In this document: positions 6,020-30,240 of the stretch, in pieces | How the letters are laid out: the number at the start of each line of letters is the position of its first letter | How positions within the stretch are numbered: the stretch's first letter is position 1 | From: Nitratifractor salsuginis DSM 16511 | Lineage (GTDB): Bacteria; Campylobacterota; Campylobacteria; Campylobacterales; Sulfurovaceae | DNA length: 64,000 bases | Direction: 5' to 3' | Assembly: GCF_000186245.1 (NCBI RefSeq) | Contig: NC_014935.1 | Span: forward strand, 1 to 64,000 | Notes under the pieces: model-generated | Told to the model about the DNA's origin: nothing | Seen by the model: only the letters and a program-made list of their open reading frames with translations | The model's database searches: none | Made by a program: the position numbers and the translations under genes

Positions 6020-6631
6020 ATGACAAAAAAATTGATCTCATTCCTGATGGCCCTCGGTTTTGCCGGCTTGATGGTGACAGCAGCCAATGCAGCGGAAGAG
6101 CCTGCCAAAAAAGCCAAGCAGACCCCCCAGAAGCTCTACCTGACCCCCAAAGAGGCCTATGACATGATCCAGAAGGATCCCAAGCATGTCCTCTTTGTTG
6201 ATGTCCGCACGCCTGCGGAGCTGGTCTTCGTCGGTTATGCCAAGGGGATCGACAAAAACATTCCCTTCAAATATATCGACTACTCCAAGTTCGTGACGAC
6301 CAAGAAGGGCAAGAAGAAGTTCGCCAGCTGGAAAAACCCCAACCTGGTCGCCGAGTTTGATGAGCAGCTCAAGGCCAAAGGACTGACACGCAATGATCCC
6401 GTTATCGTCATCTGCCGCTCCGGTGACCGCAGCGGTATGACGGCAAGCAAGCTCTACAAAGCCGGCTTCAAAAAAGCCTATACGGTCGTCACCGGTGTCG
6501 AGGGTGATATGAGCAAGACCAAGCCCCATCGCCGCAATGTCAACGGATGGAAGAATGCTGGTCTGCCCTGGACCTACAAATTCAACGCCGATCTCTTCTA
6601 TCCCAAGCCCACTCCCCCTGCCGGGAAGTAA
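6020..6631 (+). CDS. Exported rhodanese-domain protein
   Basis: The 203-residue product begins with a Sec-type signal peptide (basic MTKK, hydrophobic core, likely cleavage after ANA near residue 24), so the mature protein is periplasmic. A single rhodanese domain follows, with the catalytic loop CRSGDRSG and active cysteine at residue 132. Rhodaneses transfer sulfane sulfur through a cysteine persulfide. The native substrate is not evident; sulfur-compound handling would suit a sulfur-oxidising Campylobacterota member, but that is inference. It stands alone, in the same orientation as recJ, with its own AT-rich upstream region. Confidence 0.85.
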   Translation: MTKKLISFLMALGFAGLMVTAANAAEEPAKKAKQTPQKLYLTPKEAYDMIQKDPKHVLFVDVRTPAELVFVGYAKGIDKNIPFKYIDYSKFVTTKKGKKKFASWKNPNLVAEFDEQLKAKGLTRNDPVIVICRSGDRSGMTASKLYKAGFKKAYTVVTGVEGDMSKTKPHRRNVNGWKNAGLPWTYKFNADLFYPKPTPPAGK

Positions 6632-6948: not shown

Positions 6949-7911
6949 TTAGAGGGGAAGGACGCGGATGTTGGGGTCGAGCTTCTGCTTGAGGATCCCT
7001 TCAATGGCGAAGAGGGTGCCGGTGCTCGCACTTGCGCAGCCGCTGCAGGCTCCCAGATAGCGGATGTAGAGATCGGTGTGTTCTCCGTTCTCCTTCACAT
7101 CCAGGATCTCCATATCGCCTCCGTCCATCACCAGCATCGCCCGGATATGCTCATCGATCACGGCATTGATGGCGGCTTTCTTCTCTTCGATGCTCATCTC
7201 TTTGAAGGGTTTGTCGGGCAGGGCGTTGCCGGAGGCCTTTTTCTCCTCTTCCATCTTTTGGCGGAGTTCTTTGAGCAGATCGACAAGGTAGAGGCTTCGG
7301 TCGCTCATCCCCCTACCCGGGGCGATGCAGCTTTTGCAGAAGGCCCCGGCACGGGTGTAGTCGGTGATCGCATCGACACTCTCGAGATCGAAATCCCGGA
7401 TTGCCTTTTCGATCTGAGCCTGGGTGACGCCGGCACATTCACAGACGATGGGAGAATCTTCAGGCGTTTCGCCTTTGGCGGCGGCTACCGCCGAAGCGAG
7501 TGAGTCGAGGACAAAGAGGATCTCGTACTGCTTCTCGGGAGGCAGGGCCGGATTGGAGGGATGGTCTCTTAGGAAATACTCCAGAGACTTGTAATTGATC
7601 TTCGCTACCTCGTCGAGGCTTTTGTTCCGGCAGAGCAGAGCCGCCATATCGGCGGAGGCTCTCAATTCGGGGGAGCCGAAGATTTCATAGCGGGCGGCGA
7701 TGATCCGCTCTTCGCCGTCGAGTACCCAATACCAGCGCAGCTGCATTCCGGTTTCGACACGGCCGAAGGTATGGGTAAAGAGCCGTCCTTGGAGTTTGGC
7801 GGCATCCTCTTCGCTGAGCCGGCCGTTGTTTTTTGGTTTTTCGGCGAGCATCTCGATCTTGAAGGGGTAGGATTCCCAGTGGCTCTTGGCCAAGACTTCC
7901 TGCTTGCTCAT
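6949..7911 (-). CDS. NifU-type Fe-S protein with a degenerate IscU domain
   Basis: The 320 residues follow the three-domain NifU plan of Campylobacterota. Domain 1 (about 8-145) aligns with IscU/NifU-N scaffolds, but the three cluster-ligand cysteines are absent: the usual SCGD position reads VETG (52-55), FGCGxAxASS reads FGSPELRASA (78-87), and HCSV reads QYEI (128-131). Domain 2 is a BFD-like [2Fe-2S] domain with C157-x-C159 and C192-x2-C195 intact. Domain 3 (about 240-320) is Nfu-like with C289-x2-C292 intact. So the permanent cluster and Nfu sites are kept while the scaffold site is lost. The ATG overlaps the nifS-like stop by four bases (ATGA). A functional NifU is presumably encoded elsewhere. 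Confidence 0.85.
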   Translation of the reverse strand: MSKQEVLAKSHWESYPFKIEMLAEKPKNNGRLSEEDAAKLQGRLFTHTFGRVETGMQLRWYWVLDGEERIIAARYEIFGSPELRASADMAALLCRNKSLDEVAKINYKSLEYFLRDHPSNPALPPEKQYEILFVLDSLASAVAAAKGETPEDSPIVCECAGVTQAQIEKAIRDFDLESVDAITDYTRAGAFCKSCIAPGRGMSDRSLYLVDLLKELRQKMEEEKKASGNALPDKPFKEMSIEEKKAAINAVIDEHIRAMLVMDGGDMEILDVKENGEHTDLYIRYLGACSGCASASTGTLFAIEGILKQKLDPNIRVLPL

Positions 7912-9086
7912 TTCTGCTCCTCAGTAGGGTTTAGGGTGGAAAATCCGCGCAGATACTCCAGCGACTTTTTGACGGTCTCGATGGTGTGCTCGATCTCCTC
8001 TTCAGTAGTGTTGCGGTTGAGGGCGAAGCCCACGGTGGAGTGGCGCAGCGCCGGATCGAGGCCCAGAGCGTCGGTCAGGGCCCGCTCTTTCCAGTCGCCG
8101 AAGGGGTGGACCGTCGCCGAGTAGGCGGCGACCTTCTCCCGGTTGAGCTCGTAGAGCATCGCTTCGCTCTCGACCCCTTTGAAAGCCGCCAGCACCGTAT
8201 TCGGGGTGCGCAGGGCCCAGGGGACGAGGATCTCCACGCCGGGCAGGGCGCGCAGGGCCTCTTCGAGCTTGTCTCGCAGGTCCCGCATATCCTCCACCTC
8301 AAAGCCCAGGGCATCGGAAGCGATCTCCATCGCCTTGCCCATGCCGATAATGCCGGGGATGTTCCAGGGGCCGCTGCGGTAGCGCTCGGCTTTCATCCGC
8401 CCTCCGGGGATGATGGGCTGGAGCTCGACTCCCTCTTTGAGGAAGAGGCCGCCCACCCCGGCGGGGGCGTGGAGGGTCTCGGAGGAGAAGCTCAAAAAGT
8501 CGGGTTCGATCCGCTCCCAATCGACGGGGATGCGCCCCAGGGCCTGGGTGGCGTCGGTATGGAAAGGAACATCGTATTTCCGGCAGATCTCGGCGATCTC
8601 CTCCACGGGGTTGATGGCGCCGCTTTCGGCATCGACCATGCTTACGCTCACCAGGGCGGTGCGGGGGGTGATGTAATCAGTCAGCGTTTCAGGATCGATA
8701 ACGCCGTCGCTGTTGACCGGCAGATAGTTGACCCGGCATCCCTGCTCTTCGAAAAAGCGGGCCAGTTCTAAGGTAGGCAGGGGTTCGCGTTCGGAGAGGA
8801 TAATGTTGTTCTTGCGCCCGGTGAGGATGAAGCGCAAAAAGGTGCTCATAAAGACGGTGCTGTTGGCTTCTGCGGCGCCGGAAGTAAAGACCAGGGTCGC
8901 TTTGTCGGGGGCGTGGACTCCGGCGTAGCACTTCTCTACCGCTTCGTTGTAGGCTTTGCGGGTAGATGCGCCGAAATCGTGCAGCGCCGCCAGATCGCCG
9001 TAGGGCTGATCCAAAAATGGTTCCATCACCGCCTTGACCAGGGGGTCGACGGGGGTGAGGCGGTTGTTGTCGAGATAGACGTTCAT
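7908..9086 (-). CDS. NifS-like class V aminotransferase fold lacking catalytic residues
   Basis: The 392 residues align along their whole length with NifS cysteine desulfurases (YLDNN near 4-8, TSGAAEAN 68-75, HTDATQALGRIPVD 176-189, IPGIIGMGKA near 243-252). However, the PLP-lysine motif SAHKxHGPKG reads SSETLHAPAG (201-210), putting Thr204 where the Schiff-base lysine belongs. The catalytic loop SSGSACAS is replaced by AYSATVHPFG (321-330) with no cysteine. NNAT, EHP and NNETG active-site segments are also changed (NNRL, REPLP, VDAESG). The remaining cysteines (53, 117, 168) are outside the site. Cysteine desulfurase activity is therefore unlikely. The frame is intact, with an AGGAGG ribosome site and promoter, so it looks maintained. 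Confidence 0.85.
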   Translation of the reverse strand: MNVYLDNNRLTPVDPLVKAVMEPFLDQPYGDLAALHDFGASTRKAYNEAVEKCYAGVHAPDKATLVFTSGAAEANSTVFMSTFLRFILTGRKNNIILSEREPLPTLELARFFEEQGCRVNYLPVNSDGVIDPETLTDYITPRTALVSVSMVDAESGAINPVEEIAEICRKYDVPFHTDATQALGRIPVDWERIEPDFLSFSSETLHAPAGVGGLFLKEGVELQPIIPGGRMKAERYRSGPWNIPGIIGMGKAMEIASDALGFEVEDMRDLRDKLEEALRALPGVEILVPWALRTPNTVLAAFKGVESEAMLYELNREKVAAYSATVHPFGDWKERALTDALGLDPALRHSTVGFALNRNTTEEEIEHTIETVKKSLEYLRGFSTLNPTEEQK

Positions 9087-9132
9087 AGGCTCGGGCCTCC
9101 TTAATGCTGAGTCATATTGTCAGGTTTCGACA

Positions 9133-9138
9133 ATTATA
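9133..9138 (-). promoter_or_regulatory. Extended -10 promoter for the nifS-nifU pair
   Basis: Read on the minus strand, TGCTATAAT lies about 47 bases before the ATG at 9086: a TATAAT box (9133-9138) with the upstream TG of an extended -10. No clear -35 is seen, which is common for sigma-70 promoters in this phylum. Confidence 0.55.
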
Positions 9139-9193
9139 GCAGAAAGAGAGACTTTCTTCTGAGATGGAAGATTGAAAATGGAAGATGGAGAAT

Positions 9194-9209: not shown

Positions 9210-9380
9210 GATGTTATGTCATTGGTCATTAGTCATTTGTCATTGGGAGAAATTAAAGGGTATTGATCGGCAAGAGTGCTGGAGCAGCGACTTTAGTCGC
9301 TGAAATTAGCCTATGATCTTTAGAGCTATGCGACTAAAGTCGCTGCTCCTGTACCAATGATATTACTTTTGCATAACATC
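9210..9380. mobile_element. 171-bp REP/MITE-like element
   Basis: The element is bounded by a perfect 9-bp terminal inverted repeat, GATGTTATG at 9210-9218 and CATAACATC at 9372-9380. Inside are two hairpin units in opposite orientation: bases 9281-9300 are the exact reverse complement of 9330-9349 (20 bp), and each contains a stem GCGACT/AGTCGC with a two-base loop. The GGAGC-GCGACT-AGTCGC pattern resembles REP palindromes of Pseudomonas and Xanthomonas. It has no coding capacity. A related element lies at about 30090-30240 and ends with the same TAACATCAGT. Confidence 0.65.
9218..9245. repeat. Heptamer array, GTCATTG type
   Basis: Four exact seven-base units inside the left end of the REP-like element: GTCATTG, GTCATTA, GTCATTT, GTCATTG. 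The reverse complement of this array occurs at 9467-9501 and 30201-30228. Confidence 0.8.
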
Positions 9381-16782: not shown

Positions 16783-17691
16783 ATGAAAATGACCCTGAGA
16801 CAGATCGAAATTTTCCTCAATGTAGTGGAACTGGGCCACTTGACCAATGTGGCCAAACAGATGGGGCTGAGCCAGTCCGCGGTCTCGATGTCCATCAAAG
16901 AGTTGGAGAACATCATTGGCCGTCCCCTCTTCGACCGGCTCAACAAAAAGCTGATCCTCAACGAGGTTGGGCGCAATTTCCATCAAGCCGTCGAACCCCT
17001 CTATCGGAAGATGGAGGATATCGAGTATGAGTTCCAGAACACCGAGGACAAAGGGACCGTCCGGGTCGGGGCCAGCACGACTATTGTCGATTACCTCATC
17101 CCGCCCATCGCCTGCCGCTATATGGGGCAGTATCCCGAAGTGCGGGTCCAGCTCAAGGAGGGAAATACCCAGCAGATCGCCGAAATGGTCAAGCAGGGGG
17201 AGTTGGATATGGGCTTCGTGGAGGGGGAAGTGAGCGACCCCGACCTGATCCGGGAAGTGATCGGCGAGGATGAGCTGATCGTCGTCACCGCCAACAAAGA
17301 GATCGCCGGCCGGGAGTGGTTCATCGACGAGCTGGCCGAGGAGCGCTGGGTGCTCAGAGAAGAAGGGAGCGGCACCCGGGCGGTCTTCCTCGACTACATC
17401 AAAGAGAAGGTGCCGCGGCTCAATATCTTTATGGAGCTGGGCCACACCGAATCGATCAAGAGCCTTTTACAGAGCGGCAAAGCCCTCACCTGCGTTTCGG
17501 CCCTGGCGGTGAGCGAAGAGATCAAGGAAGGAACCCTCTATAGGGTTCCCATCAAGAATTTCGACTGCCGCCGCCACTTTTACGCCATTTACCACAAAGA
17601 CAAATACCGAAGCGATCTTTTCAACAAATTCCTCGATTTCTCCAAGGAGATGATCGGTGATTCTATGGAGTGCCGGAGCTGTGGGGAGTGA
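16783..17691 (+). CDS. LysR-family transcriptional regulator (YeiE-like)
   Basis: 302 residues with an N-terminal winged helix-turn-helix (about 5-65: LRQIEIFLNVVELGHLTNVA...LSQSAVSMSIKELE) and a C-terminal periplasmic-binding-like effector domain (about 92-295). Divergent from yeiH, which it most likely controls together with its own gene. The close pairing suggests the YeiE subgroup, reported to respond to sulfite in some bacteria; that link is from literature memory, not from this sequence. The C-terminus ends in an unusual cysteine pair (ECRSCGE). An in-frame ATG two codons downstream could also be the start. Confidence 0.88.
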   Translation: MKMTLRQIEIFLNVVELGHLTNVAKQMGLSQSAVSMSIKELENIIGRPLFDRLNKKLILNEVGRNFHQAVEPLYRKMEDIEYEFQNTEDKGTVRVGASTTIVDYLIPPIACRYMGQYPEVRVQLKEGNTQQIAEMVKQGELDMGFVEGEVSDPDLIREVIGEDELIVVTANKEIAGREWFIDELAEERWVLREEGSGTRAVFLDYIKEKVPRLNIFMELGHTESIKSLLQSGKALTCVSALAVSEEIKEGTLYRVPIKNFDCRRHFYAIYHKDKYRSDLFNKFLDFSKEMIGDSMECRSCGE

Positions 17692-30089: not shown

Positions 30090-30240
30090 GATGCAGGAGA
30101 TGCGACTTCAGTCGCATAGTTCTAGAAATCTTGGGCTGATTTCAGCGACTAAAGTCGCTGCCCCCAGCTCTTCACTTCGATAGATAAGCTTTGCTTTTTC
30201 CCATTGACCAATGACTAATGACCAATTGCGTAACATCAGT
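30090..30240. mobile_element. Second REP-like element with heptamer array
   Basis: Two hairpin units: ATGCGACT-TC-AGTCGCAT at 30100-30117 and CAGCGACT-AA-AGTCGCTG at 30143-30160. A heptamer array (CCATTGA, CCAATGA, CTAATGA, CCAATTG) follows at 30201-30228, then GCGTAACATCAGT. The end matches the right end of the element at 9210-9380 (TAACATCAGT), and the array matches that element's left array in reverse complement. No clean left terminal repeat is seen, so this copy is rearranged or truncated. Confidence 0.55.

Follow-up and report, generated by a model that had tools for sequence, protein, structure and literature searches.

Every Fe-S biogenesis system except SMS has been stated, in 2024, to include a cysteine desulfurase (PMC11559095). 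A. fulgidus IscS-IscU and M. acetivorans IscS1 combine a NifS fold that lacks the PLP lysine and desulfurase activity with an IscU-type partner (PMC7585200), and in A. fulgidus Cys321 of IscS and three cysteines of IscU together hold the cluster (PMC9769115). NfuA of E. coli and A. vinelandii is a carrier in which a client-binding, cysteine-less scaffold-like domain is joined to an Nfu domain that binds a [4Fe-4S] cluster (PMC11327457). The methanogen SufBC/SMS systems are free of a cysteine desulfurase and have sulfide as their sulfur source (PMC7585200, PMC12192291): sulfide can replace the desulfurase in M. maripaludis (PMC7585200), and in E. coli devoid of ISC and SUF, SMS functions when supplied with Na2S (PMC12192291). 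In E. coli itself, H2S rescues an iscS mutant through IscU (PMC13015791).

Nitratifractor is a vent bacterium, and the locus considered here lies in the window, that is positions 1 to 64,000 of contig NC_014935.1 of Nitratifractor salsuginis DSM 16511, a closed genome of one contig and 2,101,285 bp. The window contains a nifS-nifU pair (Table 1; the proteins and their dead relatives are written NifS* and NifU*) that lies at the locus orthologous to that of the Campylobacterota NifS-NifU of H. pylori, Hydrogenimonas and Sulfurovum (TIGR03403/TIGR02000) and shares their fold and the order of their domains and genes, but in which both catalytic centres are lost and the genes overlap. By analogy, NifS*-NifU* probably belongs with the pseudo-desulfurases paired with a scaffold homologue, as a variant. 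The four cysteines that are kept in A. fulgidus are all lost here, so that the A. fulgidus mechanism cannot apply unchanged; moreover, the partner of NifS* is a three-domain NifU retaining its Nfu centre. NifU* resembles NfuA in architecture only, a cysteine-less scaffold-like domain followed by an Nfu CxxC, whereas the dead domain of NfuA is A-type and that of NifU* is IscU-type. NfuA has, to our knowledge, no pseudo-desulfurase partner, and no prior paper on a dead NifS-NifU pair was found among the open-access papers searched.

Table 1. Features of the nifU*-nifS* locus (positions in the window).
Feature	Position	Strand	Remarks
Rhodanese-domain protein, apparent signal peptide	6020..6631	plus	recJ/nifU* neighbour conserved in clade A; membership of the system uncertain
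nifU*	6949..7911	minus	Three-domain NifU-like protein, 320 aa; ATGA overlap with nifS*; open ORF
Nfu domain of nifU*	6961..7170	minus	CxxC invariant in dead and intact relatives alike
[2Fe-2S] (BFD-like) domain of nifU*	7321..7449	minus	All four Cys retained; clade B lacks them, g4 paralogue lacks the domain
Pseudo-scaffold (IscU-fold) domain, NifU* residues 1-140	7492..7911	minus	Three ligand Cys and HCS all lost
nifS*	7908..9086	minus	NifS-fold pseudo-desulfurase, 392 aa; ORF open at these coordinates
Former catalytic-cysteine loop, residues 321-330 (AYSATVHPFG), without Cys	8097..8126	minus	Alignment with relatives
Thr204 codon, replacing the PLP-binding lysine	8475..8477	minus	Alignment with relatives
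Extended -10 TGCTATAAT (9141-9133) and AAGGAGG ribosome-binding site (9102-9096) before nifS*	9096..9141	minus	Read by eye; putative promoter

Active sites and folds of the two proteins

The lysine motif, SFSAHKFHGPKG in intact NifS of the same order, aligns with SFSSETLHAP in NifS*, in which the PLP lysine has become Thr204 and the preceding His205 is replaced by Glu. The loop ASTGSACAS of the intact enzyme corresponds to AAYSATVHPFG, with zero cysteines. The initial annotation, made from the letters of the DNA, had proposed both of these losses, and the alignment with intact NifS confirms them; it also noticed that other PLP-contact segments are altered, and the alignment shows replacements at His104, Asn155, Thr243 and the Thr of CATE. 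The substrate arginine is also gone (RFSL to GFAL, Arg to Gly), while Asp180 and, in the window protein, Gln183 are retained. NifS* scores 364.9 bits against nifS_epsilon (TIGR03403, NCBIfam), far below the curated cut-off of 587.7. Its AlphaFold model (pLDDT 89.5) has NifS of Hydrogenimonas and H. pylori as best Foldseek matches and a TM of about 0.9 to 5zsp and 5wt6, so that the NifS fold is predicted to persist.

In NifU*, the scaffold motifs ESCGDA, FGCGTAIASS and MHCSV are replaced by VETGMQ, FGSPELRASA and QYEIL, and none of the IscU-type ligands (three Cys and Asp) remains. The four [2Fe-2S] cysteines are retained in clade A (see below), and in the window as VCEC..CKSC; the Nfu centre is retained as ACSGC (PF01106, 65.7 bits). 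This is the pattern that had been described from the sequence, namely loss of the three scaffold cysteines and HCS with survival of the four [2Fe-2S] cysteines and the Nfu CxxC. The score against NCBIfam NifU (TIGR02000) is 104.2 bits, with a curated cut-off of 273.3, and a phmmer search of PDB sequences with NifU* gave zero matches. In the predicted model (pLDDT 85) the N-terminal domain keeps the IscU fold without its ligands.

These replacements bear on the idea that NifS* still assists cluster assembly from free sulfide on NifU*, as the A. fulgidus proteins might. It would fit the use of inorganic sulfur, there is the precedent of a lysine-less, desulfurase-inactive IscS (PMC7585200), and the A. 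fulgidus IscS structures 4hvk and 4r5f (D199K) are among the Foldseek matches of the NifS* model; however, the NifS cysteine and the three IscU-type cysteines, four cluster ligands in all, are missing here, and such assembly is very unlikely.

The residues of the former PLP pocket are conserved at 0.67 in the dead set vs 0.63 overall (P 0.25), whereas in the intact NifS set the same pocket stands at 0.98 vs 0.83 overall (P<0.0001). New pocket chemistry in NifS* was therefore rejected as a candidate, and the lack of special conservation argues for a structural role over a new catalytic one. Several class-specific residues (Arg100, Asp152, Ser155, Tyr322, Ser323 and Gly353) hardly vary across the two dead clades, so that a new ligand site is conceivable.

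Relatives, selection and gene coupling

Relatives were collected from 299 genomes of the order and then from 84,980 species genomes, the scan of which added further loci; most are metagenome assemblies. All five genus members in the first sample carry a dead NifS*/NifU* (60-84% identity), and the outgroup loci read there are intact pairs. Clade A, the Nitratifractor type (loci L137-L147 and L157), and clade B (L152-L156 and L158-L163), about 40% identical to the window, are dead throughout; L148-L151 hold intact pairs. The PLP lysine is missing in every NifS* examined of both clades, which group together in the NifS tree (support 100/99). In clade B the [2Fe-2S] cysteines of NifU* are missing as well. 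An MnmA tree gave only weak resolution on whether the genera holding the two clades are sisters.

A third dead pair is found in g4, another genus of the family; one of its genomes (G068) carries two pairs, one intact and one a dead paralogue. The dead NifS is shortened, with the cysteine loop deleted and SFRANTFHGPQG as lysine motif, and the dead NifU has lost its [2Fe-2S] domain and retained the Nfu CSGC. The different replacement residues and the separate branch, in an unrooted tree, suggest an independent event. A second genome (G242) has the same dead pair and the end of an intact-type NifU running off a contig edge; it most likely has an intact pair for that reason, and it was dropped as an example of a dead pair alone without SUF and taken off the desulfurase-free list. 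In all dead pairs the Nfu CxxC is the one centre that persists, including those in which the [2Fe-2S] cysteines or domain are gone.

Pairwise Nei-Gojobori dN/dS (own script; a simple method, at moderate dS) is 0.05-0.26 for NifS* and 0.02-0.08 for intact NifS; within NifU*, the pseudo-scaffold domain gives 0.03-0.19 and the Nfu domain 0.02-0.22. Selection is relaxed relative to the intact enzyme, yet clearly purifying. An artefact or neutral decay would have nothing but the unusual residues in its favour and is practically negligible: the reference genome is closed, the same changes occur in independent genomes, the dead genes contain no stops or frameshifts, and dN/dS is well below 1.

The distance from the NifS stop to the NifU start is -14 to +2 bp in all 31 rows of dead pairs, which represent about 25 distinct loci, as some loci are included twice. 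The 27 rows of intact pairs all fall between +9 and +166, and the two ranges do not overlap. Loss of chemistry was accompanied by tighter gene coupling, as would be expected for a complex of fixed ratio. The gene order pyrG-recJ-nifU-nifS-folE-tig-clpP-def-comM and its orientation are shared with Sulfurovum-type genomes carrying intact nifUS, which makes vertical descent in place, not import, the most likely origin of the dead pair.

The view of the initial annotation that the pair was repurposed rather than decaying is upheld by purifying selection, by conservation over two such divergent clades, by descent in place and by the tighter coupling. The comparisons that it had proposed point the same way: relatives of the genus share the losses instead of carrying the lysine and cysteines, and the paired losses recur in every one examined, more than chance would give. 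Among the roles it offered, that of cluster carrier fits best. Because clade B has lost the [2Fe-2S] centre and the third pair lacks the whole domain, redox chemistry cannot be the role that the dead pairs have in common.

The remaining role, a regulator or sensor, would have the complex respond to sulfide, iron or cluster status and control another protein, with a new ligand in the former active site. PLP-fold pseudoenzymes such as LCB1 and antizyme inhibitor act as partners of other proteins, and the near-invariant residues lie in or around the former pocket. The clade B pair, at a different genomic site, is flanked by a divergent LysR-type regulator gene in the loci examined (e.g. L154:6848-7762). 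However, the homologue of this gene in the window (16783-17682) is some 8 kb away from nifS*, overall conservation of the pocket does not exceed background, and no DNA-binding domain was found among the family and domain matches of NifS* or NifU*. Regulation is rather unlikely.

SUF, sulfur source and cluster carriage

Three PF00266 proteins are present in the closed N. salsuginis genome: NifS* and two that are MetY-like and PglE-like by sequence. Targeted searches of this genome found no other PF00266 cysteine desulfurase and no second, intact nifS, for which the initial annotation had proposed to look, and six near-complete genomes (G005, G041, G163, G251, G025 and G106) agree in this absence. 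The searches did reveal a SUF operon in N. salsuginis, sufB-sufC-sufD-sufE-sufT, without sufS; SufBCD thus occurs in a genome from which a PF00266 desulfurase is absent. The SufE cysteine is retained in dead and intact lineages alike. A stand-alone IscU-like protein (genome 754,261-754,740; L004:1486-1965) has two of the three ligand cysteines, the equivalents of Cys63 and Cys106 being kept and Cys37/Asp39 not; proteins of this type occur across Sulfurovaceae and in f18 g25, in dead, intact and NifS-free genomes. A further stand-alone Nfu protein is encoded at 1,524,402.

In f18 g25, a genus of another family, four closed or near-closed genomes (G018, G036, G051 and G064) contain no PF00266 desulfurase, NifS or NifU and only the small IscU-like protein; SufE is present, and SUF is shown for three of them. 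With these genomes included, loss of the desulfurase in the presence of SUF seems to be a repeated event. They also lend some weight to the proposal that only the Nfu domain matters (with the [2Fe-2S] domain in clade A), NifS* and the pseudo-scaffold being kept for expression or folding and heading to loss, as NifS and NifU have disappeared entirely there and the Nfu domain is the most conserved part of the pair. This is quite unlikely, given the low dN/dS of NifS*, its conservation over the full length wherever a locus of the two old clades is complete, and the fact that zero loci with NifU* alone were seen.

The best explanation, to which we give a probability of roughly one half, is that the non-catalytic NifS*-NifU* complex is an Nfu-type cluster carrier, with SUF building clusters from inorganic sulfur. 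NifS* and NifU* would form an obligate, translationally coupled complex with neither desulfurase nor IscU-type scaffold activity, in which the NifS* dimer and the cysteine-free IscU-fold domain of NifU* may serve as docking platform. Clusters would be built by SufBCD with SufE, perhaps joined by the stand-alone IscU-like protein encoded at 754 kb; inorganic sulfide or sulfane sulfur would take the place of cysteine as the source, and NifU* would carry the clusters on its Nfu CxxC, assisted by the [2Fe-2S] domain in clade A. This explanation is favoured by the survival of the Nfu CxxC alone across dead pairs, by the architectural parallel with NfuA, and by the losses throughout both clades with low dN/dS, a fixed gap, synteny and SUF without sufS. 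The donor is consistent with the sulfide precedents in archaea and E. coli mutants and with the use of S0 as sulfur source by N. salsuginis (PMC3156401), but differs in setting from the methanogen systems: N. salsuginis has the bacterial SufBCD with SufE and SufT, and its use of sulfide there is what we infer.

Several observations sit less well with a carrier. The stand-alone Nfu protein means that NifU* is not the sole Nfu, selection across the entire NifS* exceeds the obvious needs of a simple docking partner, and the near-invariant class-specific residues point to a conceivable new ligand site. The link with SUF is not general either, since the g4 dead pair stands beside an intact one without SUF.

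Tentatively, the history may be one in which Nitratifractor and its sister clade, with a complete SUF and no cysteine desulfurase, came to make clusters from inorganic sulfide or sulfane sulfur while NifS-NifU turned into a dead, obligate carrier, and in which paired death recurred in a paralogue of another genus. A cultured bacterium with a closed genome and SUF without a recognisable desulfurase would be an exception to the rule quoted at the outset, and with N. salsuginis it can be tested whether SUF uses inorganic sulfur directly. Chemistry was lost from enzyme and scaffold together, yet selection and the coupling of the genes endured, which makes the pair a natural experiment on the non-catalytic roles of NifS and NifU.

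Minor features of the genome and locus

Two candidate markers of desulfurase loss were rejected. The C-terminal CX3CX2C tail of SufD (CMETCHGC; L041:8305-9555, genome about 1,324,304-1,325,554) is found in every dead-pair genome with SUF and is absent from Sulfurovum and f18 g25 SufD, but it is also present in four genomes of three other families with strong NifS matches (G003, G080, G034 and G223), and therefore does not track the loss. It is possibly an extra cluster or thiol site and recalls the C-terminal site of SmsC. MnmA shows the identical three-cysteine pattern TPNPCxxC...C in all genomes read (loci L170-L192), with or without a desulfurase. Four metagenome-assembled genomes rated 96-99% complete (G081, G206, G012 and G125) have neither SufBD nor a strong NifS, and all except G206 lack NifU_N proteins as well; these gaps reflect either the assemblies or another route of Fe-S assembly.

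Of the expression signals that had been pointed out for the pair, the ATGA overlap and AAGGAGG are present; the extended -10 can be read by eye and is not among the promoters listed by a consensus scan. The rhodanese-domain gene between recJ and nifU was not seen at that place in Sulfurovum. Upstream of nifS*, at window positions 9276-9354, there is a 25-bp inverted repeat (GAGCAGCGACTTTAGTCGC) that resembles a small repeat element, and a third near-copy lies at 30145-30163.
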